DNA of 64,000 nt, from positions 620,001 to 684,000 of the forward strand of contig CAJQUW010003174.1 in NCBI GenBank assembly GCA_907163375.1, written 5' to 3'. This document shows positions 2,958-55,519 of the stretch, in pieces (within the stretch, counting starts at the first letter, position 1; the number at the start of each line of letters is the position of its first letter). The DNA is from Prostheceraeus crozeri. Its lineage: Eukaryota > Platyhelminthes > Polycladida > Euryleptidae. Made by a program: the position numbers and the translations under genes. The notes under the pieces are model-generated. The model ran no database searches, had not been told where the DNA came from, and was given only the letters and a program-made list of their open reading frames with translations.

Positions 2958-4120
2958 CTACTGGTGGATGCGAACTTTGACCCACCATATATCGACCTCA
3001 TTGCACGATTTCAACTCTTTGTAGTTTTTTAGAAAGACCAATTGGCAAATAAACAAAACTGGAGACGCGTATTCAAGGACAGAGCGCATTAGAACAAGAT
3101 GAATCTTGAGTAAATCATTTACGTCAGTAATATACTTGAGCTTCCTGAGGACTAAGAACCCTCGATTACACCTTTTAATCACTTGGTGTCCGTGGCACAG
3201 TGGTTGCGTACTTGGACTAGCGATCTCATGGTCCAGAGGTCGAACCCGGAAAGTGTCACTGGAAGTCGGCAGGAAGGGCATCCGGACTACAAAGCACCAC
3301 AACGATCCAAAAAAAGTCTGACTTCAGTCAGCACCGTCCAAGGCCCCAGTAGGGGTAAAAAGTGACGTAAAATCCGTAAAAAAAATCACTTCTGCAACAT
3401 GATCATGCAAAGACTACTTGTTGCTCAAAGTAACACCAATGACTTTGCATTTGTTTACAATTGGTATCGACAATGTCATTGAGCAGTCGCCTTTTCTTTT
3501 GTTGCAAATGAGCACTTTTGATTTCTTTTGAGATGAACTTCAGTCGAGATAGTAACTTCATCATTGCTGTGTAATTCCAGTAGAACGACTTGGTTGAAAT
3601 CATCGGCGTACTGATTAAGGTGAGTGCTTTCCCAAAGCAGGGATGAAGTCTGCTACGAAAATAGAAAAGAGAGCGGGCCAACGTAGAGCCTTGTGGAGCA
3701 CCCCTGTTCATAACACAAGTGTGAGAATAACTGTCGTTAACGCGTACCTGAAAATGTCGATCATCAAGATAGCTCCTCAACCATCTAACAGCACCTACTG
3801 GAAAAGGTAAGGCTTTGAGGTTTCCAATAATCACTTTGTGACTTGTTTAATCAAATGTAGACGAGAGGTCACAGGAAACAACACTTGTTTGAGTTCTGCC
3901 AAACTCCGAATAGCACTTTCCATTGTATCAACCGGAGCTGCAGTTGTAGAGTGACACGGTCGAAACCCGTGCTGTTCATTACCACAAACACTTTCAAATA
4001 GTTGCCACATTTCACCGATCATAATTCTTTCAAAAATTTTCGACGGCACTGAAAGCGGACTGATTGGACCCTTCCTACAGACCCCTTCATCAAATTCTTG
4101 GCTTGTTTGCTTGAATCGAT
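2958..4120 (-). pseudogene. Degenerate non-LTR retrotransposon (CR1/Jockey-like) RT
   Basis: Minus-strand fragments translate as consecutive pieces of a LINE reverse transcriptase. Near 4050-3840 is FERIMIGEM followed by EQHGFRPCHSTT (the region before RT motif A). Near 3730 is RGAPQGSTLA, the classical (G/A)PQGS motif B. The C-terminal block HDHVAEVIKRCNRGFLVLRKLK reads across the SINE insertion site, followed by MRSVLEYASPV. Frameshifts and stops occur between blocks and the catalytic FADD region is not preserved in frame. This is a dead, 5'-truncated copy. The clade is inferred from motif style only. Confidence 0.75.
3185..3383 (+). repeat. tRNA-derived SINE inserted in the LINE relic
   Basis: The head carries an A box (TGGCACAGTGGTTGCG) and a B box (AGGTCGAACCC). 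The tail is A-rich and ends in a short poly-A run. It is flanked on both sides by the 8-bp sequence AATCACTT (3177-3184 and 3384-3391), a target-site duplication typical of LINE-mobilised insertion. Removing the SINE and one TSD copy restores the minus-strand LINE frame across the site, which fixes the boundaries. Confidence 0.85.
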
Positions 4121-4176
4121 GTCAAAACTTTGGGGAAAGCTGACTTTAAGTAAAACAATGATTTAAGTCACACTGT

Positions 4177-4260
4177 CGCCCGTCGATAGCTGAGTTGGTA
4201 GAGCGTTGGCCTAGAATGGCAGAGGTCGGTGGTTCAAATCCACAAAGACACGCAGTTATT
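4177..4260 (+). repeat. tRNA-like sequence / SINE head
   Basis: It contains a strong A box (TAGCTGAGTTGGTAGAGCG) and B box (GGTTCAAATCC) at tRNA spacing. The acceptor stem and anticodon arm do not fold convincingly, and extra bases follow the T arm. I read it as a SINE head or tRNA pseudogene. A decayed tRNA gene is the alternative. Confidence 0.5.
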
Positions 4261-5024
4261 ATCCGTCTGTGAAGTTGAAAATCAGGACTCAAAACAACAC
4301 GATATCTTTATACATGAAGTTAATTGATAGTCTAGTTTTATTACGCTGTTTCATGTGAAAGCTTCGTTTATTGCGGTTGTCAACATCACCGCTCTTCTAA
4401 ACGTTCTTCTGGCTGCGATGGCAACGTCTGCACAAGGACAGTTTTGGTGGCATGGCACGCTTACCGTCCTACTCCAGTCCTGGGTTCCATGCGATGTTTT
4501 TATTCTGAAAATATCAAACTTATCTTCTTGAAAACGTTCGATATTATAGCAATGGCAATACGATGTCTATCCGACATTGAAAATTTAGAACGAGCGAAGC
4601 GATAGATGTCTATTCGGATCATGATATATATTCAAAAGAATCATATCAATGAATCAGGCATGGATATCCATGAATCAGACCAATGATTTACAGAGATATG
4701 TAGCCAAGACATCCATGAAATGTATATTTGGCATAGAAGTAGACGCTATTACTCATCAGCAATGTTAAGTTGAAAGTAAGTTTCAATTCATTCAATGTTG
4801 ATTTCTTTGTCAATAAATTAACGTAGAAATTGTTAGATTTTTAATTACACTGACTAGATACAGACATATTCAACAATGTTAACATTACCATGGATTTTGA
4901 GGATAACAATGTAAGACATTTGAGGGCGCGTAGGCGCCTGAGAATGTCTGACATTGTTGCCCGAAAAAATCTATGTTAACACTATTGTGCGTAATTGACA
5001 TGGTCTGGGCAACAATGGTATGAC

Positions 5025-5280
5025 CATAGAAATAAACTGTTTGTCTGAAGTTGGCTAGAATGGAAATTGACACAAGGTCGCGGCACATCCGAGGGAACTA
5101 AGTTGGGGCATGAAGAACCAATTAAAAGCTTCGATTTACTCATGTGACTGATTCTAACCCAATGATACAGACGTTGGCAGGTGCATCTAAGTGAAAATGC
5201 GTGCGATTTATGTGCCGTTATTGTGCATTGCATGAAGCTTAATTTCTATTCTAGAGGTTTTATTGTTATCAATTTCTATG
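5025..5280 (+). mobile_element. hAT-type MITE (CATAGAAAT family), solo copy
   Basis: A 256-bp element begins CATAGAAAT and ends ATTTCTATG. The flanks are GGTATGAC (5017-5024) and GCTATGAC (5281-5288), matching at 7 of 8 positions, an 8-bp target duplication as expected of hAT transposition. The interior is closely related to the two nested copies at 37.1-37.6 kb. It has no coding capacity. Confidence 0.8.
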
Positions 5281-5437
5281 GCTATGACTATACATACTCG
5301 TATGCAGACATACACTAGATTTCTTAAATATCTTTCACATGTATAGATATAGATATCATCACTACGGGATACATTGTTGCCTTCTTTTTTCACATTGTGC
5401 CATAGCTAAATTACGCACAATAACAGTTGATTGTCTT

Positions 5438-5792
5438 CCACGGTGTCCCCATTTCAACATTCAGACTCAAAAAATATACCATCGGCCAAACCTGTTTTTT
5501 CATGATCCATGACCCATTTGAAGTGTATAATCGCAAAAAGGAAAATTTTTTAATGCTCAGATTTTTTTTAAATGGCCAATTTTCAAAATGGCGGCTATTT
5601 TCGCTATGTGTGTCCTCTTTTTTTCAACTCAACGCATTTCCGAGACAAGGTAGCCGTCATAACACTATATATTGTTGTAATGCATCCATAAAATACTTGA
5701 AGGAATTGTCAAGTACTGTCTGCAAAGGTGACATATCTATTTTATGAGTAGTACGTGCTAGTTTTACCACTATTTTGCAAAAATAGAAAATA
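5438..5792 (+). repeat. Left TIR of the 5.4-kb transposon
   Basis: An exact reverse complement of 8657-9011, including its 8-base T run. It lies outside the coding region and probably holds promoter and transposase-binding sites. Short open frames in it are mirrored in the right TIR and are not genes. Confidence 0.95.
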
Positions 5793-6433
5793 ATTTCATT
5801 CATTTATTAAATCAGAAATTTCCCGCAGCTATTGAAATTGCAAAAGTACTTGAAGCTCAGAATCTAAGAATTTACAAATGTCGATAATGATCTTCAAAAC
5901 CTATCCGTTTTAGCTATCAAATGAAATCTCGAGCGTCTTTTGTCATCTCATTTATTCTATCATCGTATTTTTTTCTATGACATGTCTTATCTTCACATCT
6001 CATGTTATGTTTTGTCACCATAATAGACCATCAAGATCATTTTTCTCAACGTCTAGAGCAGACTCGGAAAAGGCTCATTGTTTCAGATTACCGGCTACAT
6101 AAAGTCATTAGTAAAGCCACCATATAACATGCAAGTGTGATATAGAGTTTAGAGGGTAAAGAATTCTCCGCTTCATACTTCTATTCTTTACTCTACTTAT
6201 ATAAAGATATAGAAGCCATAAAATATCTATTGTCTTGACTCATTATGTTGCGTGCGGTAATAGCATTGTTCGATTTCTTCATTAAACTGCTAGTGCATCG
6301 TGATTGATTGAAACTGATTGATGAGTCATACCAAAGATATCCATGGTCATACACATGCATGTTATGGCATAAATATAACATAGGAATTGAATTGTAGCTC
6401 ACTGGTAAATTTTTGATTTCATTTACGATCAAA

Positions 6434-8393
6434 ATGGCAACGGCGTTAGATGAAACACACGAAAAACTACGGAAGAGAGTATGCATCGTTTGTTACCGGA
6501 AAGCGTCGAGAAATCTTTCTGCTAAAGAAATTTCTATCGTACAAGAACATTTAATTGAACACTTTGACATAGACAATCCTGATTTTCCAGTGGCGTTTGT
6601 GGAGGTTGTCACATGCTATTACTGAAGAAAGGTAAAGGGGACAGTGTTGACTTTTTTCTACCAGATGACTACGATCCGCGACGTCAAACAAACACTCGAT
6701 CCTGCAAGAAATGTGAGTGTAGAATTTGCTCTGTTGCACTGATGAGCCTACAAGATGCAGTTAAATTGAAACGGAAATCAGGCCGACCTCAAACAAATGT
6801 GATTCCACCTGTTGAACATTTCAAAATATGTGGACGTTGTTTTGCAAAGATCTATAGAGGAAGTAACCATTCAGTTGAAATGTGCTCTTCTAGACGGGCA
6901 ACAGTTTACAACGTTGAATCTTTGTTGGATTCCCTTTCAAAGCAAACTAAACAGCGAGTTGCAAGTAGAACCATCAACGAATCCACTTCGCTAGCCACGC
7001 TGGGAAACTGCGATCGAAGAATACCGTCGAAGAGAGAAAGCCTAGGAAGTCCTATTATTCAGGCAAGTACTTTTACAAAAATTCAACAAAGACTTTATTT
7101 AAGTACTCGAGAAGTAAGCAAGCTATCACAAGATCTACGAAATTCTAACCCCGGAATTGTAGAACGTCGTCTTAGAGACAAACTATTTGAACTGAATCAT
7201 TCATTGGATGGATTCTTTGACCTTCGATTACTGCCATTCAAGATCCAAAAATCTGACGTCGATTCAAAAGAAGAATGGGCAGTTGTTTGTCGTGATTTGA
7301 ACGTTTTCGTCGATTTTGTTCTTCGAGAAAGAGGTATTGACAATGACTCGGCTTTGATAAAAATCGGCATTGATGGCGGAGGTGGTTTTATAAAATGCTG
7401 TCTTTCCATCTTCGATCCGTCAGATGATGCAACAGGCACATCAAGGCGTTCGGAATTCAAAGACTCAGGAGTCAAACGTTGCTTCATTATAGGCATCGTT
7501 CCTGAAGTACCCGAGAACTACTACAATCTGAAACAGTTGTGGATCAATGTCGGCATTCATTTGCTCAACCGGAAATTTACGATTGCCAGTGACCTAAAAT
7601 TATGCAATATTTTGCTCGGTCTGATGTCACATAGCAGTGTGCATCCATGCTCATGGTGCGATATCAAAAAAGATAGACTCGATTGCAAAGGAAATCAGAG
7701 AACTCTCGGTACTTTGAGGAAACTGTTTTGGAATTACTATGACGATGGCGCAGTGAAAGAAAAGGCAAAATATCATGGTAACGTCGTTCATCCTCCAATG
7801 TTTGTGGTAAATCCGATATCACCACAGTTATTTCTCTCGTTCCCCCACCTGAACTACATTTACTCACAGGACCGGTAAATACCATATTTTCGGCTTTGCG
7901 AAAACTTTGGCCACAGGCTTACGAGTGGTTGCTACGCTGTGGTATCCAAAGAGAAGGCCTGCATGGAGGAAGTTTCACCGGGAATGCCAGCAGGAAGTTG
8001 TTGGCGAATGTTGATGTTCTAGAGCAAATGGTTCCGAACAATCAAATTGTATTTATTGAGGCATTCAGGCGTTTCAAAGACGTCATCGACTCATGCTATG
8101 GAAGTACCTTGGATGCTGACTATGCCACAAAAATCGAATTATTCAAGATATCTTATCAAAAGTTGAAGATCCCAATCACACCGAAGATCCATGCCGTGAT
8201 TTTTCACATTACTGAGTTCTGCTCCTTCAATGGCAACAAAGGTCTTGGGCCATGGAGCGAGCAAACTTCAGAATCTGTCCATTATGATTTTCAGCGTGTG
8301 TGGGACAACTATAAAATCCGCAGCACTGAGAACAATAACTATGGCAAACAATTGTTTTCTGCTGTATGCAGATACAATAGCTTGCATTTATGA
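6434..8393 (+). pseudogene. DDE-like transposase, two -1 frameshifts
   Basis: The gene starts at the ATG in an AAAATGGC context and would encode about 650 residues. Order of features: zinc-binding-like cysteine pairs (CIVC; then a CxxC and H around the first break; CKKCECRIC; CGRC); a central block with IKIGIDGGGGF (near 7365-7390), a candidate first catalytic Asp; IASDLKLCNILLGL (near 7585), a candidate second Asp; HPCSWC (near 7645); and WSEQTSESVH (near 8254), a candidate catalytic Glu. A Cys pair between the second Asp and the Glu is known from several cut-and-paste families. Frame changes by -1 at TTTGTGG (6596-6602) and again at TTTGTGG (7801-7807). A polyadenylation-like AATAAAG lies near 8503. 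The catalytic assignment is inference. Confidence 0.7.
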
Positions 8394-8656
8394 ATTTTCT
8401 AATTATAAATGAAGTTCGTTTTAGCAACTGGTAGTGTGGCTTGGTAGAACTAACTTGTTAATCTTGTTATTGAAACATGTCTTCTCTGAGCAAAATTTGG
8501 ATAATAAAGTCTTTTCTCTCATCCTGTAATATGATTTGATACTCGAATATTGAATGGTCAGTACTTCTTCCGATAGATAATGCAAATGTACATGCTTCAT
8601 GCATCGTCTATGGCTATAGCGAAATCTTTCATTGCATGAAAAAACAGACTCAAAAA

Positions 8657-9011
8657 TATTTTCTATTTTTGCAAAATAGTGGTAAAACTAGCACGTACTA
8701 CTCATAAAATAGATATGTCACCTTTGCAGACAGTACTTGACAATTCCTTCAAGTATTTTATGGATGCATTACAACAATATATAGTGTTATGACGGCTACC
8801 TTGTCTCGGAAATGCGTTGAGTTGAAAAAAAGAGGACACACATAGCGAAAATAGCCGCCATTTTGAAAATTGGCCATTTAAAAAAAATCTGAGCATTAAA
8901 AAATTTTCCTTTTTGCGATTATACACTTCAAATGGGTCATGGATCATGAAAAAACAGGTTTGGCCGATGGTATATTTTTTGAGTCTGAATGTTGAAATGG
9001 GGACACCGTGG
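8657..9011 (-). repeat. Right TIR of the 5.4-kb transposon
   Basis: The perfect inverted partner of 5438-5792, ending GGGGACACCGTGG. The bases just outside (TAGGTTTAC) do not match those outside the left end (GATTGTCTT), so no direct duplication can be assigned. Confidence 0.95.
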
Positions 9012-11336
9012 TAGGTTTACTCTTGCTATACTTGCAGCCTCTCACGACTTAGAGGCATTAGACCTACTTCGGTTTAGACAATAGATAATGAGAGCTTTCT
9101 ATGCACATCAGCTGTTAGATCGCTTTGATCTCAATAATGCATTATTTATAATGAGAAGAAAACTCACACACATTCACATTTTCTAAGTCACAGCTAGTGA
9201 TGGATTACAGGAAGCGTGCAGTGTTGTGCAAAAAGCAAAATAAATTGAAAGGCAATCATAATTTGAAAACTATGCAGATGTCTTTATGAAACTTTCGTAC
9301 TTTAAATTGATTTCATCCGCATGTCTTCATGTGAATTATGAAGAGTAGATAATATCTCATTCAATAGCTATTTTTAAATCAACTAACTAAGGAGACTGTG
9401 AATTGAAACATCGTTTTTCATCTGGCTTTATGGTTCACATTGCTGAGAGCATCAAAGCATTGTTTTTTTTGTCACGATATTTCAAGTACTGTGTGATAAG
9501 ATCTTCAAAACAATTATCTGATGAACATTTCGGCTATTTGCTACCTGTATTTCCCGCAATTCCTAAATAATTAATCAGATATTTTACTGTATAGATAAAA
9601 ACTTGATCAAGAAGAGTATGTACTATTAAAGAAGCTGTTATTTTAAGCTAATGCGGTGATGTGCGCAAATGAAAACATGGATGACAAAAATAACTCGTCA
9701 AAGATGAAGAACTACATAATGCATACATAATGTTTCTCATTTTGCCGAGGAAGCAAGTGCACGTTGTTCATAAAGTTTAAATTAATCTTTACATATTAGA
9801 GATATGTACATGTGCATTTTTAAAATATAATTTGGAGATCATTGTATAGGGTTGACCGATCAAGACGTTGATCATCCGTTTCATTATATAGACATATGAC
9901 ACATCAACTCTAGAATGACATGATCATTCGCAACATTAACACTTCGAGTTTATCGCTGACATTCCAGCAGGATAATGACTCATTCATCAATATCATCCTA
10001 TTTCGACATTAACAGCCAGTCATACCACTCATATCACGTGATAGATTTGGCTGAATTCGAGTTTGTCAGATATCTTCTATAGATATATCAATTAAATGGT
10101 TTCCAAGGTTAGAAACTCATTTGTCTTTAAGGCAAGTAGTTAATAAAGCATGTCACTAAGTGCCAAATGCTTAAGTATTTGCGATGAGTGGCATTGCCAC
10201 GCTAATACTATTGATACACGAAAACATATAGGCTGCTTATAATATCAAGATTGCAACCTGGTCGAGTTTGCCGGTATCGCCGAAAGTGTCAGCTATGGCA
10301 AAGTTATCCATTATCATACGAATAATGCATGGAGTATTGTGGCCGATGTAGGGCCTAAGAAAAGACACTGTGATGTTATCCACATAACCTAGTTATAACA
10401 CGGATGTTCCATCTCAGTCAATGAACTATATCGAATTAATATCAAATGTTTATTGGACATTTATGAATTCTCCTTTCATATGGTATGGTAAAACCATGCA
10501 ATCTAAACTACATAGAAGTGTATTCCTAAATTTGATAAGGTAAAACCGTGTAGTTAGAACTGCATAGATTTTACTTAACATACTCGAGAAAAGACACTTG
10601 TCTTACAAACAACTTGTTCATGTACCATAGTTTAAACTGCAGGTTTATTCTCTATCAAATTATGTAAAGTCAATGAAGTGCACGGTTTATAAAATTTGTA
10701 ACTTTTTTGTTATTCATTTTCATTGAAACATATTTCTTGTGGTCTCTAACGGCATCAAGAAGACTACGAAAATGGCATGATAAGTAAAAACCATGTAGTT
10801 TAAACATACATGGTTTTGCCTTAACACGGCCGAGCAGAATTACCGCAATGAGGTGAAGCATTCCGTTTCAAATGCCATTGCCACAACAACAGTATAATGA
10901 AAGCAAGATCTAAGGTTAATTCGCCCTATTCAATGGCGATCTATAGCTGCAGACATGAAACAAAGAGGCAAATACTAAAGTAACGGCTAAAAGGTAAGGA
11001 TTTGAACAAGTATCGCGAACAACATTAAAATATCTATCTTTATGAGAACGATCAAGAAGTCTTGGCATGTATTCTTCCATGGTTTATACATTTAGCGATG
11101 AATCTCATGATCGATGTGTTTTATATCTTTCTAGGATTTATTGTTGATGTAGACTTTATTAAATGTTATTGGAGTACTGATTTCAAGACAAAGTGTGATT
11201 AGCTAATATTGAATAAGACAACCAACATCCATCTATATGGTAAGTTTATAGACACGCAGATGAACAGAAAATTAGTTCATTTGGTCCGTATTACTATGGG
11301 GCCATTTTGAAGGTCTAAAGGGGTCCATATAGTAAC
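9012..11336. other. No recognisable gene; short palindromic motif cluster
   Basis: No supported coding region. Between 10,490 and 10,822 a motif around GGTAAAACCATG / CTACATAG recurs three times (near 10,494, 10,539 and 10,784). The last copy contains the hairpin arms AAAACCATGT and ACATGGTTTT. These may be remnants of a small inverted-repeat element. Confidence 0.4.
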
Positions 11337-11435: not shown

Positions 11436-11589
11436 GTTACTACCGGGATTACTCGGGAGGAGCAATTTCTTTACGCCCGGTAGATAACAAAATCAATATA
11501 TTTACTACCCAGATTTACTCCCTCAAGAGGGTAGGTATAACTCTGCTAGTGAAGTCAAATGCGATCAGTTTCTTTAGTCGCTGCTCGAG

Positions 11590-12621
11590 ATGGCAGGTTA
11601 TGTCTTAATGATACGTGCCCTGAGAAGGGAGCGTGTATTCCGAGATCGGCATAACCCATTCGATTGTTACAACGAGGAAAATTTCCGTCTGCGCTATAGA
11701 TTGACGAAATCATGCGCGAACTCATTGATTTCTCAAATCAGGGCAGACATCGCATCTCCTACCCTTCGAAGCTTCGCAGTATCTCCAGAACTGCAAACTT
11801 TCATTTTCCTTCGATTCTTGGCCACCGATCAGTTTTACCATGAGGTTGGTGATATTCATGGATTTTCTCCATCCACTGTGTGCAGAATTATTGTGAGGAT
11901 ATCGAATGCGATTGCAGCGTTAAGCTCAACATACATAAAAATGCCAGAATCTCAAGAAGAAGTCGATTCAACAAAGCTGGATTTTTACCGAATTGCAAAC
12001 TTTCCAGGTGTTCTGGGAGCAATAGATTGTACACATGTTCGTCTACTATTCAACGTTCCTCCAGAAAACGCTGCAATGTATATAAATCGGCATCACTGGT
12101 ATTCCTTGAATGTTCAGGTTGTATGTGACGCTCGATACAGAATTACAAATATAGTAGCCAGATGGCAAGGATCCATACATGATTCAAGAATCTGGAACAA
12201 TTGTCGACTACTTATGGGTTTTGAGAGCAATCAGTATCAAGGATACCTTCTCGGTGATAGTGGATATCCTTGTTCTCCATATCTCCTGACCCCATTACTT
12301 CGAGTAAACAGCGATGGAGAACGGCGTTATAACCATGCCTATATTCAAACACGCATTACTATTGAAAGGATGTTTGGACAGTGGAAACGTCGATTTCCTA
12401 TTCTTAAATATGGGTTGCGAATGAAACTTTCGAAAGTACCACATATTATCATTGCAGCTGCTGTACTGCACAACATGGCGATTGGAGATGGCGATTTAAA
12501 TTTCGTTGATGATAATGAACAGATTTTAAATGCTTATATAAGTAATGATCATATCTATAGAGGGGATGAAGCACGTGGAAATCTGTTTCGTCGAAGACTC
12601 ATTGAACAAGTGTTTGTTTGA
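11590..12621 (+). CDS. PIF/Harbinger transposase (HARBI1-like), intact
   Basis: A 343-residue protein, close to the usual HARBI1-type length, starting at the ATG in GAGATGGCA. A helix-turn-helix-like stretch (VGDIHGFSPSTVCRIIVRIS, about residues 86-105) precedes the DDE nuclease. Catalytic-type residues are visible in family context: Asp146 in GAIDCTHV, Asp198 in GSIHDSRIW, the conserved GDSGYP at about 222-227, and Glu259 in ITIERMFG. The enzyme would cut and paste the element at 3-bp targets, acting in the nucleus with the Myb/SANT partner encoded convergently downstream. No stops or frameshifts. The family call is firm; activity is inferred from integrity. Confidence 0.95.
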   Translation: MAGYVLMIRALRRERVFRDRHNPFDCYNEENFRLRYRLTKSCANSLISQIRADIASPTLRSFAVSPELQTFIFLRFLATDQFYHEVGDIHGFSPSTVCRIIVRISNAIAALSSTYIKMPESQEEVDSTKLDFYRIANFPGVLGAIDCTHVRLLFNVPPENAAMYINRHHWYSLNVQVVCDARYRITNIVARWQGSIHDSRIWNNCRLLMGFESNQYQGYLLGDSGYPCSPYLLTPLLRVNSDGERRYNHAYIQTRITIERMFGQWKRRFPILKYGLRMKLSKVPHIIIAAAVLHNMAIGDGDLNFVDDNEQILNAYISNDHIYRGDEARGNLFRRRLIEQVFV

Positions 12622-13480: not shown

Positions 13481-14430
13481 TTACGAGCGTAAATATACAT
13501 ATAATTTCAGCCACGCTGTGGAAGTTGGATAAAAATTATTGAATGCAACAAGAATAATATGTATATTTCGTAGCAGTACACACCACAACTGTTCACTATT
13601 TAGATTTTCAAAACGAAGTCGTTGATTCATCGGAAAACAACTGCTGTATAAAGCCACTCGTATTGCCTCGTCTGTGTTCTGTTGGCGGTATACGGCAGCA
13701 GTGGTTTTATGTGCTTCTGAGTTCGTTAATTTTTCTAGAGCCTGAAAATAAAATATAATTCAATGATAACTACATACTTTAAGAAAGCGCTGCGTTAAAC
13801 ATCATGACTCACCTCAGCTATTCGTTCCTGGGCAATAGCCTTTCTCCTTTCCACATCGAGCCTCTCTCTTGAAATTGTGAAAAAATCAAGTGTTGTGGGT
13901 CGTTTTGCTGAGTTACTCGTACATTTTTGCGACTCTTCCATCAAGGCATTACATTTACAGGTAGGCTTTCTCGCGGCATCGCTTACTGTCCGGTTCTCAA
14001 TTTCTGAATCATTGTCGCTATCGATATCAACTTTTGATGTACTGGGATGGGTTTGAACAGCATCACCATCGTAACTGCATTCAAGTGGTTCCATTTCTGC
14101 GGCTATTATCTCAGATATTTGTCCATCAGTGATGGACAAATTTGGGGCCAAATTGACTCCACCTCCAGTCGCATTTGTCTCTCTCTTCATAAGCGCAATA
14201 TTCTTTTTCGTCTTGGATTTTAAACCTTTCCAAAGAACCTTCATCTGATTGACTGACTTTGCTGAATTATATTTACTGTTGAAAGCAGCTGTTAGGTCAC
14301 TCCATGCCTTCTGTTTTTTCGCTAAAGTCTTCAAAGTGACATCCTTACTTTCAATAATCCGATTCGATCTTATAAAGTCTATTACGAATTCCCTGTGGGC
14401 TGTGGTAAAGTTTTCACTTCTTCTCGACAT
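13481..14430 (-). CDS. Harbinger Myb/SANT-like partner protein, two exons
   Basis: Exon 1 is 14430-13813 from the ATG of MSRRSENFTT; exon 2 is 13741-13481. A 71-bp intron has GTGAGT at the donor and TTTTATTTTCAG at the acceptor. The product is about 292 residues. The N-terminal ~90 residues (ENFTTAHREFVIDFIRSN; KAWSDLTAAFNSKY; VNQMKVLWKGLKSKTKK) form the trihelix Myb/SANT-like fold common in Harbinger second proteins, which bind element ends and help transposase enter the nucleus. An acidic linker follows, then a charged, probably helical C-terminal region (ERLDVERRKAIAQERIAE) continuing into ALEKLTNSEAH in exon 2. A shorter unspliced form ending near 13795 is possible but loses exon 2. Confidence 0.8.
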
Positions 14431-14581
14431 ATTTTGGCAGCTTGACTGTTGTAAACTTTGTTGCAAATGATGCGATTCTTAACGATTTATTCGACGTTAG
14501 TGATATTTCATTGGTTAATTATGTTAACCAACGAGGATGGTAGATGATTTGCGCCAAGGCATAGTAACTCTAATGACTTGA

Positions 14582-37640: not shown

Positions 37641-37931
37641 GGGCTAGCGTCACGAAGAGCCGTTAGCGATAACGGAGCAATTAAAGGAAGCCTCGAGCGT
37701 CACGAAGCTTCCGTTTCATAACGGCTCGTTTACTTAAAATAATCCGTGCGGCAGGAAGAAGCGTTAAGCCGCCGTTTGTCGCGCCGTTTAGAAAATCGCT
37801 AACGGAGGTGAGGGGCGTCTTTAAGACCTCCGTTAGCGAGATCTTATATCTATTGGCTGCTGATTTACAACGATATCGACAATATTCGACACTATACAAT
37901 ATCGACAAGCAATTGTTCATTCTCAGAGACC

Positions 37932-38966
37932 ATGCATCTGTGGCGGCTGGATTTCGATGATTATTATTTTGAGGAAAGGCATGTTTATCGTGACAGAATA
38001 AATCCCTTGGCAGAATTAGGAGACGTGGAATTTTTGGAGAGATATAGATTTCCAAAGTCCATCGTATACGAACTGTGTGAGGAATATCGATCAATTTTAG
38101 AAAGAAAAACACAGCGTTCTCAAAGCCTCTCAGTGGAATTACAGATGTGCATTGCATCGAGATATTTCAGTCATGGCGGATTTTTACCTCAAGTTGCGGA
38201 TATTCATGGAGTTTCAAATAGATCTGCAAGTCGATCTATACATGATGTTTCACAAGCAATAACAAGGAATCGCAAGAAGTACATTGTTTGGCCATCGGAA
38301 GAGGACATGTTAAGGAACGTGATCAATTTTTATAATTACAGTGGCCTTCCGAAGACAATAGGAGCAGTCGATGGTTGTCACATGCCAATCAAAAAGCCCT
38401 CACTTCCTTTCAATGAATGCACTTTTGTCAACAGAAAGGGATTTGTATCAATCAATTGCCACGTCGTATGTGATTTTGACTTAAAGATCATCGATTTCAG
38501 TCCGCGATGGCCTGGAAGCACACACGATTCGTTTATGATGCAGCAATCAAATTGTTGGAATGAACAAGAAAGCATGTCTAATTGTTGGATTCTAGGGGAT
38601 TCGGCATAACCTTTATTGACGCGGTTATTGAAGCCGTTTGATGCCCCCGATTCAACTGCTCAGAATGAGTACAACAAAAGTCACAAAAAGGCTAGAAGTG
38701 TAATCGAAAGATGCCATGGTGTTTTAAAATCGCGCTTCCGTTGCCTAACAATTGGCATGAATTTCTCACCGGCAAAGTGCTCCAACATTATTATGGCTTG
38801 TGCCTGCTTGCACAATCTCGCAATTGAGTGCAATGTCAACGTTTTAGAAGAACTTGATTATTCAGATGACGTTGATACCTCAGCATTTCATGACTCTACT
38901 GGGATCACACAAAATGGATACAATGTTCGTCAAAAAGTAGTCGAGGAAGTATTCAGCACAAATTGA
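37932..38966 (+). pseudogene. Harbinger A transposase, one in-frame stop
   Basis: 344 codons from the ATG in GACCATGCATC. DDE-type residues are in place: Asp147 in GAVDGCH, Asp199 in GSTHDSF, Glu259 in SVIERCHG; a helix-turn-helix-like VADIHGVSNRSASRSI is near residue 88. Codon 226, the conserved Tyr after GDSA, is TAA; the frame then continues as PLLTRLLKPF to the normal end. This single nonsense change is the only visible defect. Harbinger B carries the identical TAA, so it predates their divergence or duplication. Confidence 0.9.
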
Positions 38967-49309: not shown

Positions 49310-51905
49310 TTGAAGTAGTCCTGATGAGGACTGATGTCGTTCTCCAATCCGATCTTTTGTTGTCTTATACGGGAGGTTCATTATGTAATTTTCCACGTTG
49401 TAGACAAAAAGATAGCTCTCCCTCAATTTAGACGATTTATTTATTTTTTTAAAAAATAAAGTTCCCCGACGCGTTTCGTCACGGTGGACAGTATCAAGGG
49501 GGTAAGTAAATGAACAGGCAGTTGGCTTAAATATAAAAATGATTAGGCAGTGACGACTCGTTAGATCAATTCATGTTTGCGGTTGATTTGTGGCTAGTTC
49601 AACGCTATGAAGCGTGCTTCGGCCATTTTAGTTTGCATCGAATTCTTTTGTTTATTTAGGACAGAAAGCTGGAAATTATCGATGTTCATCATTCTATAGA
49701 CATGGTCAGTCAAACTATGTTCAGATAGTGCACTTTTACGATCTTGACAGTTCAAACTACGTCTGTGTTCATCATGCCGTAACTTTAAAGGTCGGCAAGT
49801 TTGACCAATGTAATTTTTATGACAAATTTTACATTCAAAATTATACACAATGTATTTATCGTTACACATATATTTAGGTCCAATATCCCTGCACAGTTTA
49901 CAATTACATTTGTTATTGTTTTCAATAGTATTTATGCTATTAACTAAAGTTTGACCGGGTTTGCAGGTAACACGAACAGGAAGTTCATACTTACTGACCA
50001 GTTTATTAATTTTTCTTAAGTAGCTATCACTAATGAAATCAACACAAAGGTTAATTTGATTTTCATTACTTTTAGTATTGGATTTTGATTTTGGTGTAAT
50101 TGAGTTAGGCTTAAATCCATTTTCATACAGACGTTTTTTCATTACATTAACTGACTCTAAGGAAGTATCCGAACAAAGATCTTGCACATATTTAATACTA
50201 CTGAGTACAAAATTATTTTTTATGTGATTTGGCAACCAACTATCTTTACGCATCGTAATTCCAGAATGACAGGATTTACTGTACCATTTATACCGCAACC
50301 TTTGACTTACGGAAATACTTATATCCAAAAAATTCAAGTAATCGTTTTCAGGAATTTCAATTGTGAAATTGATGTTATTGTTTGCTGAATTAAAGAGATG
50401 TAATATATCCTGAAAAAACTTTTCACTTTTGGGATATGGTCCCAAGATTATATCATCGATATACCGCTTGTAAATTAAGGGTACAGTACCTAAATTTTTA
50501 TTTAAGTTATCAAGAGCTATGGTTTCAATTGCATTCATGTAAATGATCGCAAAAGGCGGAGCAAAATGAGCCCCCATAGGGCATCCTTTAATCTGTAAAT
50601 ATGTCTTATTATTGTAGGTTATTTCATAATTATAGGATATGAATTTCAAAAAGTCAACTAGGTCTTCAACTCTAAAGCCATAATTATCAATTTTATTCCA
50701 ATGTATTTTAGCAAACGTCTCTATTTCTGCGATAGCCTCAGCAATTGGTATACTCGGATATAAGTTTTGAACGTCCAGTGAAATAAACACATAGTCCTCA
50801 TTTACAAATTTGTCAGCATTTTCATTAAGAATTTTGATCAAAGATTTAGAAATATCCAAATGGGCTGGAACAAATTTTACTAATTGGTTGAGGAGAACAC
50901 TCACAAGCCAATCAACTTTCTGAGTAGGGGTGCCAATTACTGAAGCGATGGGCCTTAAGGGAAAGAAATTATTAATCTTATCTTTATGATCTTTTATGTT
51001 TACACGAAAGTAAGCCGGATGACTTCCACAAGTCAGTAGTTTTTGATAGTCTATGTAAGCATTGTTCCGACATTTATTACGAATCAAGCAATTCGCTTGA
51101 TTTTCTATACTAGAATTTTTGGATTTTTCTCTATATTTGTATGTACTATTGTCATTCAAAATGTCTTCTGTCCTTGAAATAATACTTTTTTTATCTACCA
51201 CTATGTTCCGATTTGACTTATCAGACGGAATGACAAGTAAATTGTTTTGTTTAAGGAAAATCCTTGAATCAGATTTTATTCTATTAGTTTTTTTGTATGA
51301 ATTCCCTTTCTTTAAAAATTGCACTTCTTTGCGCATTAAATTTTTAGCTTCAGCCTCAAAAAGCTTTAAATTATTTTCTAATTGATCATCCATTTTAGGA
51401 GGCAAATGAACTGTATTTTTGTCAAAAGGTATTTTTAACTTCCGAACATAGTCCGACCGACCATTCCGAGAATGATGAAGCCATCTCAATTTATATGATA
51501 AAGTATCTATAGCAATTTCATTATTTGTAATGAAATTCTGATCGCCAATATGTGGCAAGCGAAACTTAGGACCTTTAGATAAGAAAGTTTCGATGCTACT
51601 CGGAATAAAGACATCCGTTTCATTAATTAAGTGATTATTTACCTTAATACTATCATGTTGATCGAACGAGTCGACAGTGCGGAACCACAAATCATCACGA
51701 AATGGAAAGAAAAAACTGCACTTGCTCTGCAAATCGTACGAACTCCTGTCAACAGGAAAGTTTCTACCAGTCCACCACATCCATTTGTTGGAATGACGCT
51801 TCCAAATGATATTGGTTTCTTGGTCCACCGCAGAGAGCACCAAATCCAAAGCTGCAATCTTTACCTCTCCAATCCGTAGGTGTAGAAATACAATGCTGCT
51901 GTACT
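49310..51905 (-). mobile_element. Penelope-like element with intact ORF
   Basis: Contains the 751-codon RT/GIY-YIG frame. Downstream (minus strand) is CCGTGACGAAACGCGTCGGG at about 49484-49465, similar to the post-ORF motif found in many PLEs. An 11-mer CGGATTGGAGA occurs both just upstream of the ORF (about 51,870) and at about 49,350 downstream, possibly marking terminal repeats. The exact ends are not resolved. Confidence 0.75.
49594..51849 (-). CDS. PLE reverse transcriptase with GIY-YIG endonuclease
   Basis: 751 open codons. The first codon is TTG and the first ATG is codon 24, so the true start may be codon 24, or upstream if the copy is 5'-truncated or spliced. RT motifs: A as LDVQNLYPSIP (358-368), B as GCPMGAHFAPPFA (422-434), catalytic YIDD (463-466). 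A Cys-rich linker CNCKLC is followed by the GIY-YIG domain: YIVYNFECKICHKNYIGQT (from 666), RHDEHRRSL, and the distal SEHSLTDH block ending in MAEARFIALN. PLEs copy RNA at cut chromosomal sites, and the GIY-YIG nuclease nicks the target. No stop or frameshift, so this may be an active copy. Distinct in sequence from the PLE remnant at 36.8-43.5 kb. Confidence 0.93.
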   Translation of the reverse strand: MDLVLSAVDQETNIIWKRHSNKWMWWTGRNFPVDRSSYDLQSKCSFFFPFRDDLWFRTVDSFDQHDSIKVNNHLINETDVFIPSSIETFLSKGPKFRLPHIGDQNFITNNEIAIDTLSYKLRWLHHSRNGRSDYVRKLKIPFDKNTVHLPPKMDDQLENNLKLFEAEAKNLMRKEVQFLKKGNSYKKTNRIKSDSRIFLKQNNLLVIPSDKSNRNIVVDKKSIISRTEDILNDNSTYKYREKSKNSSIENQANCLIRNKCRNNAYIDYQKLLTCGSHPAYFRVNIKDHKDKINNFFPLRPIASVIGTPTQKVDWLVSVLLNQLVKFVPAHLDISKSLIKILNENADKFVNEDYVFISLDVQNLYPSIPIAEAIAEIETFAKIHWNKIDNYGFRVEDLVDFLKFISYNYEITYNNKTYLQIKGCPMGAHFAPPFAIIYMNAIETIALDNLNKNLGTVPLIYKRYIDDIILGPYPKSEKFFQDILHLFNSANNNINFTIEIPENDYLNFLDISISVSQRLRYKWYSKSCHSGITMRKDSWLPNHIKNNFVLSSIKYVQDLCSDTSLESVNVMKKRLYENGFKPNSITPKSKSNTKSNENQINLCVDFISDSYLRKINKLVSKYELPVRVTCKPGQTLVNSINTIENNNKCNCKLCRDIGPKYMCNDKYIVYNFECKICHKNYIGQTCRPLKLRHDEHRRSLNCQDRKSALSEHSLTDHVYRMMNIDNFQLSVLNKQKNSMQTKMAEARFIALN

Positions 51906-54037: not shown

Positions 54038-55345
54038 TTAATCACCAGACACAATACTTGATTGCCAAGATACTGCACCTTGTGGACTGACAAAGAAGTT
54101 TGCAAGTGCCATTTGTTGTTGCCGCACTTCCCCACTGCTTCTGTTGCCACCAAGCCGCCTTGCTCGGACGATTCCTGAAGATTCAGTCAATTCGCGTCTC
54201 CAGTGACCCTCACGTACATTTCCATTCGTCTCCTCTTGATCAAACATCGAAGAAGGAGCGTAGCGCTTTGCAATATCTTCTTCAACAGTTAGATCTGCCG
54301 TGCGCAAGTAATTATGCAGAACGAATGCAGCACGAATAAAAGTTTCCACGTGGTTAGTCTCGGCAATGACTGGTCTTAGAAAAAGACGCCATCTTGCCGA
54401 TAGGATACCGAAAGCATTCTCAATAGTCCTCCTAGCACGTGAAAGTCTATAATTGTACACTCGCGTGACATAATCCAACGGAACACTTCCACCTCTTCCA
54501 GGAAAAGGGCGCATCAAATATGATTTCATTGGAAATGCTTCATCTCCCAAAAACACGAAAGGTGCGTGAAAGTCCGTACCATTTACAAACTTGCTTTCAG
54601 GTATATTGAATCGTTGATGTTCCAAACCGTCAAACAATCGAGAACGAGAAAAAACTCCGGCATCGCCTTCTCTGTCGTAACTTCCAACTTCCAAGTATGT
54701 GAACTTGTATTCACTATCACATATTGCCATTACCAATGTGCTGAAGCGATGCTTGTAATTGTAGAATAAAGAACCACTTCTCTTGGGGCATTGGATAGAG
54801 AAATGCTTTCCGTCGATCGCTCCAATGCAATTGGGAAACTGCCATTTCTCCCAAAATCCTTTGCTTATGGTTTTCGTCTTATGGGTTTCGTCAAATTCGT
54901 CTTGCGTGTCAGGAAACTTTAAATAAGTTGGCATCAGCTCTTCATAAATAGCAGTGGCAGTGGCATAAACTATTCCAGATATCGTAGACCTTCCTCTTCC
55001 AAAACGTAGCGATAAATCCACTTGCTGACAACCAGACGCAAGGTAGCACAATGTTATCATTAATTTTTCATCAGTTGGAACAGATGGTCTTCTTGATGAT
55101 ATCGTCGAAAGTCGATGTCGTACTTTTGAATGAAGATCATCAAACTGTGCCGGAGTCATGCGCATATACTTGAAATATATTTCTGTATCTCTATCACGCA
55201 AATGAGGAAGAAGGCCAACGTATTCTCCAAAATTGTTGCGGCGTTGAAGAGCTGGTCTAATCCACCATCGTCTTCTTTTCTTCCGCTTGCGTACGAGAAG
55301 AGCAACCGCCACAGCAATTCGTAGCTTCTTTGCAGCATACATCAT
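54038..55345 (-). CDS. Harbinger C transposase, intact
   Basis: 435 residues from the ATG pair in CATCAT (MMYAAKKLR). A basic N-terminal patch RKRKKRRRWW (about 19-28) may be a nuclear localisation signal. A helix-turn-helix-like LSLRFGRGRSTISGIVY (about 111-127) precedes the DDE fold: Asp178 in CIGAIDGKHF, Asp228 in REGDAGVFSRS, GDEAFP at about 267, Glu309 in SRARRTIENAFG. No defects. Longer than Harbinger-1 and A proteins, and with the GDAGVF form of the second motif, which marks a separate PIF/Harbinger branch. Confidence 0.95.
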   Translation of the reverse strand: MMYAAKKLRIAVAVALLVRKRKKRRRWWIRPALQRRNNFGEYVGLLPHLRDRDTEIYFKYMRMTPAQFDDLHSKVRHRLSTISSRRPSVPTDEKLMITLCYLASGCQQVDLSLRFGRGRSTISGIVYATATAIYEELMPTYLKFPDTQDEFDETHKTKTISKGFWEKWQFPNCIGAIDGKHFSIQCPKRSGSLFYNYKHRFSTLVMAICDSEYKFTYLEVGSYDREGDAGVFSRSRLFDGLEHQRFNIPESKFVNGTDFHAPFVFLGDEAFPMKSYLMRPFPGRGGSVPLDYVTRVYNYRLSRARRTIENAFGILSARWRLFLRPVIAETNHVETFIRAAFVLHNYLRTADLTVEEDIAKRYAPSSMFDQEETNGNVREGHWRRELTESSGIVRARRLGGNRSSGEVRQQQMALANFFVSPQGAVSWQSSIVSGD

Positions 55346-55519
55346 CGCAACTAGCTCTTTGCTTTTACGTGAATGCTATAAAAGTAGTTGAAATCGATAA
55401 TAGCGATGATCGATCGCTGAAAGCCAAGTGCGGCCGCACATTGTTGTTTGCGTTAATGCTAGTAGCGTTGTTCGCTCGCTAATAGCGGTTATGTGAACCG
55501 GGCATAAACTTACTGTACA

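Follow-up and report, generated by a model that had tools for sequence, protein, structure and literature searches.

Chapaev transposons, as described in PMC4079192, have 5′-CAC...GTG-3′ ends, target site duplications (TSDs) of 3 to 4 bp, many copies and a DDE transposase marked by C(2)C, LH and H(4)H; the Merrow and Garfield families are listed there (Table 1) with two exons, Conan_ET with one. These two Cys and three His recur across the CMCT clade (Chapaev, EnSpm, Mirage, Transib and others), whose members mostly have CA..TG ends and 2- to 5-bp TSDs, and some EnSpm families combine CAC..GTG ends with 3-bp TSDs (PMC12730594). Transib transposons are described as having a CAC heptamer, a nonamer-like block, 20–22-bp spacers, symmetric terminal inverted repeats (TIRs) and a DDE core related to that of RAG1 (PMC8355894). 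RAG1 and the RAG-like (RAGL) transposons have a CAC-starting heptamer and a DDE enzyme whose CxxC and HxxxxH are ordered as in the protein studied here, and RAGL elements have a 5-bp TSD and a RAG2L partner (PMC7204232, PMC4411706). PMC4411706 equates the N-terminal region of RAG1 with the Chapa domain, which as of 2015 had been printed among transposons for Chapaev, Chapaev3 and TransibSU only. A transposon of Aplysia, N-RAG-TP (Panchin & Moroz 2008, via PMC8355894), is described as RAG1-N-terminal-like and may itself be a Chapaev. The element analyzed here is probably a degenerate copy that derives from a recently active cut-and-paste DNA transposon of the Chapaev type (CMC/CMCT clade).

The element lies at 5439–9010 (+ strand, 3572 bp) of a 64,000-nucleotide stretch of genomic DNA, referred to as the window, and ends in CACGGTG...CACCGTG. 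A repeat search returned inverted arms at 5435–5796 and 8653–9014 (362 nt, 99% complementarity). An earlier sequence-only reading had described TIRs that match base for base over 355 bp, and 5438–5792 and 8657–9011 do match at 100% over this length; the element boundary lies one base further in at each end, since most listed TIR matches begin at query base 2 and the flanks diverge outside CACGGTG between copies. The left TIR (5439–5792, + strand) and the right TIR (8657–9010, − strand) are identical for 354 bp, element position 355 being the first mismatch. Each TIR begins with the terminal heptamer (5439–5445, + strand; 9004–9010, − strand) and carries an A-run, the subterminal box, at tip positions 31–36 (5469–5474, + strand, and, the TIRs being identical, 8975–8980, − strand). 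The left flank contains a high-copy repeat (window 5089 to about 5290) for which at least 42 matches were listed after scoring 40 of 2738 candidates; most are 96–99% identical over about 195 bp. No empty site for the window copy was seen with this left flank, as the repeat stops approximately 130–155 bp before the junction.

The transposase gene of the window copy (+ strand throughout) is split by two frameshifts into three frame segments, over which all of the motifs named earlier (Cys pairs, IGIDGGGGF, SDLKLC, HPCSWC and WSEQTSESVH) were recovered. The first segment (6434–6622; part of one open frame in copy L013) contains the ATG and the first Cys pair (CIVC). The second (6583–7878, its last part out of frame) contains further Cys pairs, a GRP motif, IGIDGGGGF with the first Asp codon (IGID, 7372–7374), SDLKLC with the second Asp codon (SDLK, 7591–7593) and HPCSWC with the C(2)C motif CSWC (7648–7659). 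The third (7782–8393) contains PPPELHLL with the LH-motif His (7857–7859), the H(4)H motif HAVIFH (8190–8207), WSEQTSESVH with the two conserved Glu of EQTSE (8259–8273) and the C terminus. A four-letter reading word that could carry the frame over the second shift was looked for in the window copy and not found, and no single frame of this copy encodes the whole enzyme. The window element has no second long ORF: its longest stop-free stretch beyond the transposase segments is 107 amino acids. A single-sequence structure model of window segment P0001 gave a mean pLDDT of 34.1, with 424 of 431 residues below 50.

Further copies were sought in the same genome (2.05 Gb). The TIR query, a kind of search that the sequence-only reading had proposed, gave at least 40 matches among those listed (40 scored of 385 candidates), and four protein searches gave at least 105, 74, 68 and 72 matches among those listed (97 of 3884, 68 of 6567, 64 of 7036 and 64 of 7149 candidates scored, respectively). 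With at least 40 TIR matches and at least 105 protein matches listed from one genome, the TIRs and protein motifs are not products of chance, and the 3884 to 7149 first-look candidates per protein query (64 to 97 scored) mean that the lineage is abundant in its own genome. The 23 full-length copies have a median pairwise identity of 97.6%, and four of them (L013, L032, L037 and L038) have 695 stop-free residues, the intact frame from the first shared ATG being about 650 residues.

Two copies have other ORFs in or near them. Copy L021 (C372:171429–181243) holds nested ORFs that, by reading, resemble piggyBac and mariner transposases, and copy L018 lies within or next to an ORF with an apparent resemblance to a protein of Maverick/adintovirus-type elements. 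The window itself contains three ORFs matching Pfam DDE_Tnp_4, at 11578–12621 (+ strand, E = 8.2e-34), 54038–55375 (− strand, E = 6.4e-23) and 37812–38609 (+ strand, E = 7.1e-14, covering part of the domain only), all three presumably PIF/Harbinger-type transposases. A Myb/SANT-like ORF near the first of these (13795–14478, − strand; Myb_DNA-bind_5, E = 1.3e-9, Pfam) is plausibly its partner protein. A 769-amino-acid ORF at 49594–51903 (− strand) matches RVT_1, a reverse transcriptase domain (Pfam, E = 1.5e-7), and its C-terminal stretch resembles a GIY-YIG nuclease, as found in Penelope-like elements.

For TSDs, the 26 copies with both ends were scored: 15 have exact duplications of 4 bp, four have exact duplications of 3 bp (AAT, CTT, TCA and AAC), two have 2 bp and five, the window copy included, have none; a TSD of exactly 5 bp was found in 0/26. 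Of the other families in the genome, eight could be judged: five (L062, L063, L065, L068 and L070) have 4-bp TSDs, and L054, L064 and L066 have none; the tally leaves out L055, whose right end is degenerate, and L067 and L069, whose left ends lie outside the sequence. The TSD of L070 is CCAT and that of L068 is TATA, a palindrome that also lies inside the inverted arms. Together with the TIRs and the many copies, the TSDs of the sister copies bear out the earlier claim of a DNA transposon. The same counts make it extremely unlikely that the element is a Chapaev3, with which it shares motifs and the 3-bp TSDs of four of the 26 copies: PMC4079192 found TWA TSDs, flanked by A and T, in every Chapaev3 element it examined, whereas none of the four 3-bp TSDs found here is TWA and the majority of TSDs are 4 bp. 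In copy L020, the second segment stops at the same shifted sequence as in the window copy, yet the copy has a 4-bp TSD, which suggests, as something less than proof, that the broken lineage was mobilized by enzyme from intact copies.

Conservation was assessed in alignment A3, which contains 13 sequences that are 37–55% identical to its first member. The first and second Asp are each present in 13/13 and the Glu in 11/13; the two sequences lacking the Glu, L054 and L056, depart from the family at the C terminus, as after a frameshift. For the Cys/His columns, the two Cys of C(2)C are present in 12/13 and 13/13, the His of LH in 13/13 and the two His of H(4)H in 12/13 and 11/13. The earlier description of a DDE-type transposase with a Cys pair ahead of the Glu is thereby upheld, the residues being kept in 11 to 13 of the 13 related sequences.

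Profile searches, which the sequence-only reading had proposed for recognizing the transposase, did not succeed in doing so. Pfam gave no transposase model, just weak non-transposase matches, for the window segments (E up to 1) and for the eight members of alignment A1 (E up to 10, with filters that drop most matches above 0.1). A PDB sequence search with P0001 and A1 gave no match. In viral and prokaryotic contig collections no relative was confirmed, a result that says little about animals; likewise, none was confirmed in phages (query P0001) or plasmids (query L055 protein), these being prokaryote and virus collections only. A search of PF12940 against the own genome was empty, as were its controls, so that it carries no weight.

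Comparison with RAG1 was performed using hhalign against one mouse RAG1 core sequence and three widening profiles, A1, A2 and A3, of 8, 9 and 13 members. The profile was widened twice after the narrow A1 comparison came out non-significant, and all three results are given: scores were 25.1, 35.9 and 43.4, probabilities 1.4%, 17.5% and 52.7%, and shuffles reaching the score 5/160, 0/150 and 0/150, respectively. For A3, P was 1.4e-4 and the best of 150 shuffles scored 31.5, while three control transposases scored 12.3, 16.2 and 20.8 against the 43.4 of the RAG1 core. In two of the alignments with RAG1 the second Asp aligns with D708 and the second Glu of SEKTSE with E962, and the two Cys, the His of LH and the two His of H(4)H are also in register; the first Asp was not placed on D600 by hhalign. 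The roles of mouse RAG1 residues such as D708, E962 and D600 are assumed here. The catalytic half falls in register with mouse RAG1, of which Chapaev is a distant cousin. For the RAG1 N-terminal region (167–388), the scores of A1, A2 and A3 were reached by 0/160, 3/150 and 0/100 shuffles, and the aligned stretch is just 46–50 columns long, over Cys pairs 2 and 3.

A further reading is that the element is a Transib or a RAGL transposon, and its CACNGTG-type heptamer, the remote RAG1 register and the heptamer with nonamer-like block and 20–22-bp spacers described for Transib ends (PMC8355894) all point that way. We regard it as very unlikely: both groups are printed with a 5-bp TSD, whereas the TSDs here are 4 or 3 bp; the TIRs are several hundred base pairs long as against 13 bp in TransibSU-1_PM (PMC4411706); and the window element has no second long ORF. 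Transib also gave no recognizable sequence match here.

The sequence-only reading had left the element unassigned, which is not supported: PMC4079192 prints CAC...GTG ends, 3- to 4-bp TSDs and the motifs C(2)C, LH and H(4)H as hallmarks of Chapaev. The window element has 5′-CAC...GTG-3′ termini, and CAC is present in all 12 family tips compared; 19 copies have the stated TSD lengths (15/26 exact 4 bp and 4/26 exact 3 bp); and A3 contains all three motifs, residues that are common to the CMCT clade. The same reading had said that a clear hit to a catalogued superfamily would overturn its view; the hallmarks supply the superfamily, while the databases supply no hit (weak non-transposase matches in Pfam, none in PDB). 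The comparison with Chapaev is one of description, the filing fitting printed hallmarks rather than a direct alignment with Chapaev sequences, and the copies here have one open frame and near-identical TIRs of several hundred base pairs.

As EnSpm shares the CAC..GTG ends and the whole clade the Cys/His set, within CMCT just the 4-bp TSD and the Cys-rich N terminus point to Chapaev. The element might instead belong to another CMCT lineage outside Chapaev, either a branch of EnSpm or a Chapaev sister such as Plavaka, ESTA or Lanisha, a placement consistent with the clade-wide C(2)C/H(4)H, the mostly CA..TG ends and the 2- to 5-bp TSDs described in a 2025 paper (PMC12730594) and with the failure to find a Pfam transposase or PDB match. 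EnSpm (CACTA) elements can have CAC..GTG ends, which fit, and 3-bp TSDs, which are seen in 4/26 copies versus 4 bp in 15/26. The predominance of 4 bp, as printed for Chapaev (PMC4079192), and a similar RAG1-N-terminal-like (Chapa) stretch, though not significant with A2 (3/150 shuffles reach the score), make this placement unlikely. The CAC..GTG ends and Cys/His residues are not confined to Chapaev, and the Chapaev assignment is therefore held as probable rather than certain.

For analysis of the element ends, the tips of 12 families were aligned ungapped from the end, using one end per family (right for L062, L067 and L069; left for L055 and L064). The left end of L062 is degenerate (CGC), as are the right ends of L055 and L064, and for L067 and L069 only the right end was used. 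CACGGTG is exact in 11/12 tips, the exception being L065 (CACGGTT). Mean pairwise identity is 0.98 at positions 1–7, 0.41 at 8–12, 0.33 at 13–28, 0.64 at 29–37 and 0.36 at 38–50; a further conserved subterminal block lies at positions 96–110 (mean pairwise identity 0.55). A run of at least five A covers positions 31–34 in 10/12 tips, compared with maxima of 8 after independent rotation (2000 trials) and 5 after shuffling. The tips with no such run are those of L063 and L067, whose proteins are 62% identical and which, unlike the other ten families, have no GRP motif between Cys pairs 3 and 4 (GRRP in L062). L063 and L067 form one clade, so that the joint absence of the A-run and of this GRP counts as one event, and in both a GRP exists further downstream. 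By eye, their tips seem to share another block at about positions 27–45, perhaps a different recognition box. The nonamer ACAAAAACC is best at 23-bp spacing in 3/12 tips (L068, L069 and L070), always tied with other spacings, and scores best at other spacings in the remaining nine; an A-run is therefore claimed, and not a nonamer. Judged from sequence, CACGGTG, a diverged spacer and the A-run may constitute a two-part recognition signal read by the transposase.

This layout resembles that of the vertebrate 23-RSS, which has a palindromic CACNGTG heptamer and an A-rich block near position 31 (PMC9723617, PMC8355894), and differs from it in that the nonamer ACAAAAACC is not favored at 23-bp spacing in most tips and that both ends are alike, with no 12/23 asymmetry. 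CACNGTG heptamers, CACGGTG included, are among those most used by RAG1/2 in a high-throughput 12-RSS study (PMC9723617), and RAG1 is described as reading the nonamer via an AT-hook-like GGRPR (PMC6941560). It is conceivable, although we think it improbable, that the tips are true relatives of the 23-RSS, with a CACNGTG heptamer, a 22- to 23-bp spacer and an A-rich box read via the AT-hook-like GRP. The tip identity profile, the 10/12 A-run count and the absence of GRP between Cys pairs 3 and 4 in both A-run exceptions are consistent with such kinship. It is weakened by the single-event origin of these exceptions, by the relatedness of all 12 families to each other, by the A-box not matching the nonamer, by the position of GRP, which is not that of the RAG1 nonamer-binding domain, and by the downstream GRP of L063 and L067. 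Homology of the tip layout to the RSS is unproven. In the literature covered, with Repbase Reports and most subscription papers outside its scope, no paper was found that names both Chapaev and a heptamer; within the same scope, PMC9723617 alone mentions CACGGTG along with transposons and inverted repeats, which is no claim that the link is unpublished.

In a working model for the probable Chapaev, single-frame sister copies encode a protein that joins a Cys-rich N terminus to a RAG1/Transib-like DDE catalytic part, into which C(2)C...H(4)H is inserted; an RNase H fold and binding of metal and zinc are predicted. The transposase would bind both near-identical TIRs at the CACGGTG tip and at the A-rich box about 22–23 bp inward, and would cleave at the CAC tip. 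Insertion at a cut staggered by 4 bp (sometimes 3 bp), followed by fill-in, would give the TSD. Movement of the window-copy lineage would depend entirely on enzyme supplied by intact copies. The assignment of protein parts to the two boxes, the chemistry of cleavage and present activity are likewise inferred.

The element is well explained by known biology, and the conserved two-block tip is its less expected part. A heptamer with an A-rich block approximately 22–23 bp inward is described for Transib and the RSS (PMC8355894), whereas protostome RAGL ends, which have AAA at TIR positions 8–10, are conserved across species mainly in the outer 13–15 bp (PMC7204232). If the 23-RSS kinship were true, the heptamer-spacer-A-box arrangement would predate RAG, given the similar layout described for Transib (PMC8355894), and would go back to an ancestor common to Chapaev, Transib and RAG. 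Should a two-part signal truly be used by the lineage, intact copies from a single genome would allow the age of the RSS layout to be tested.
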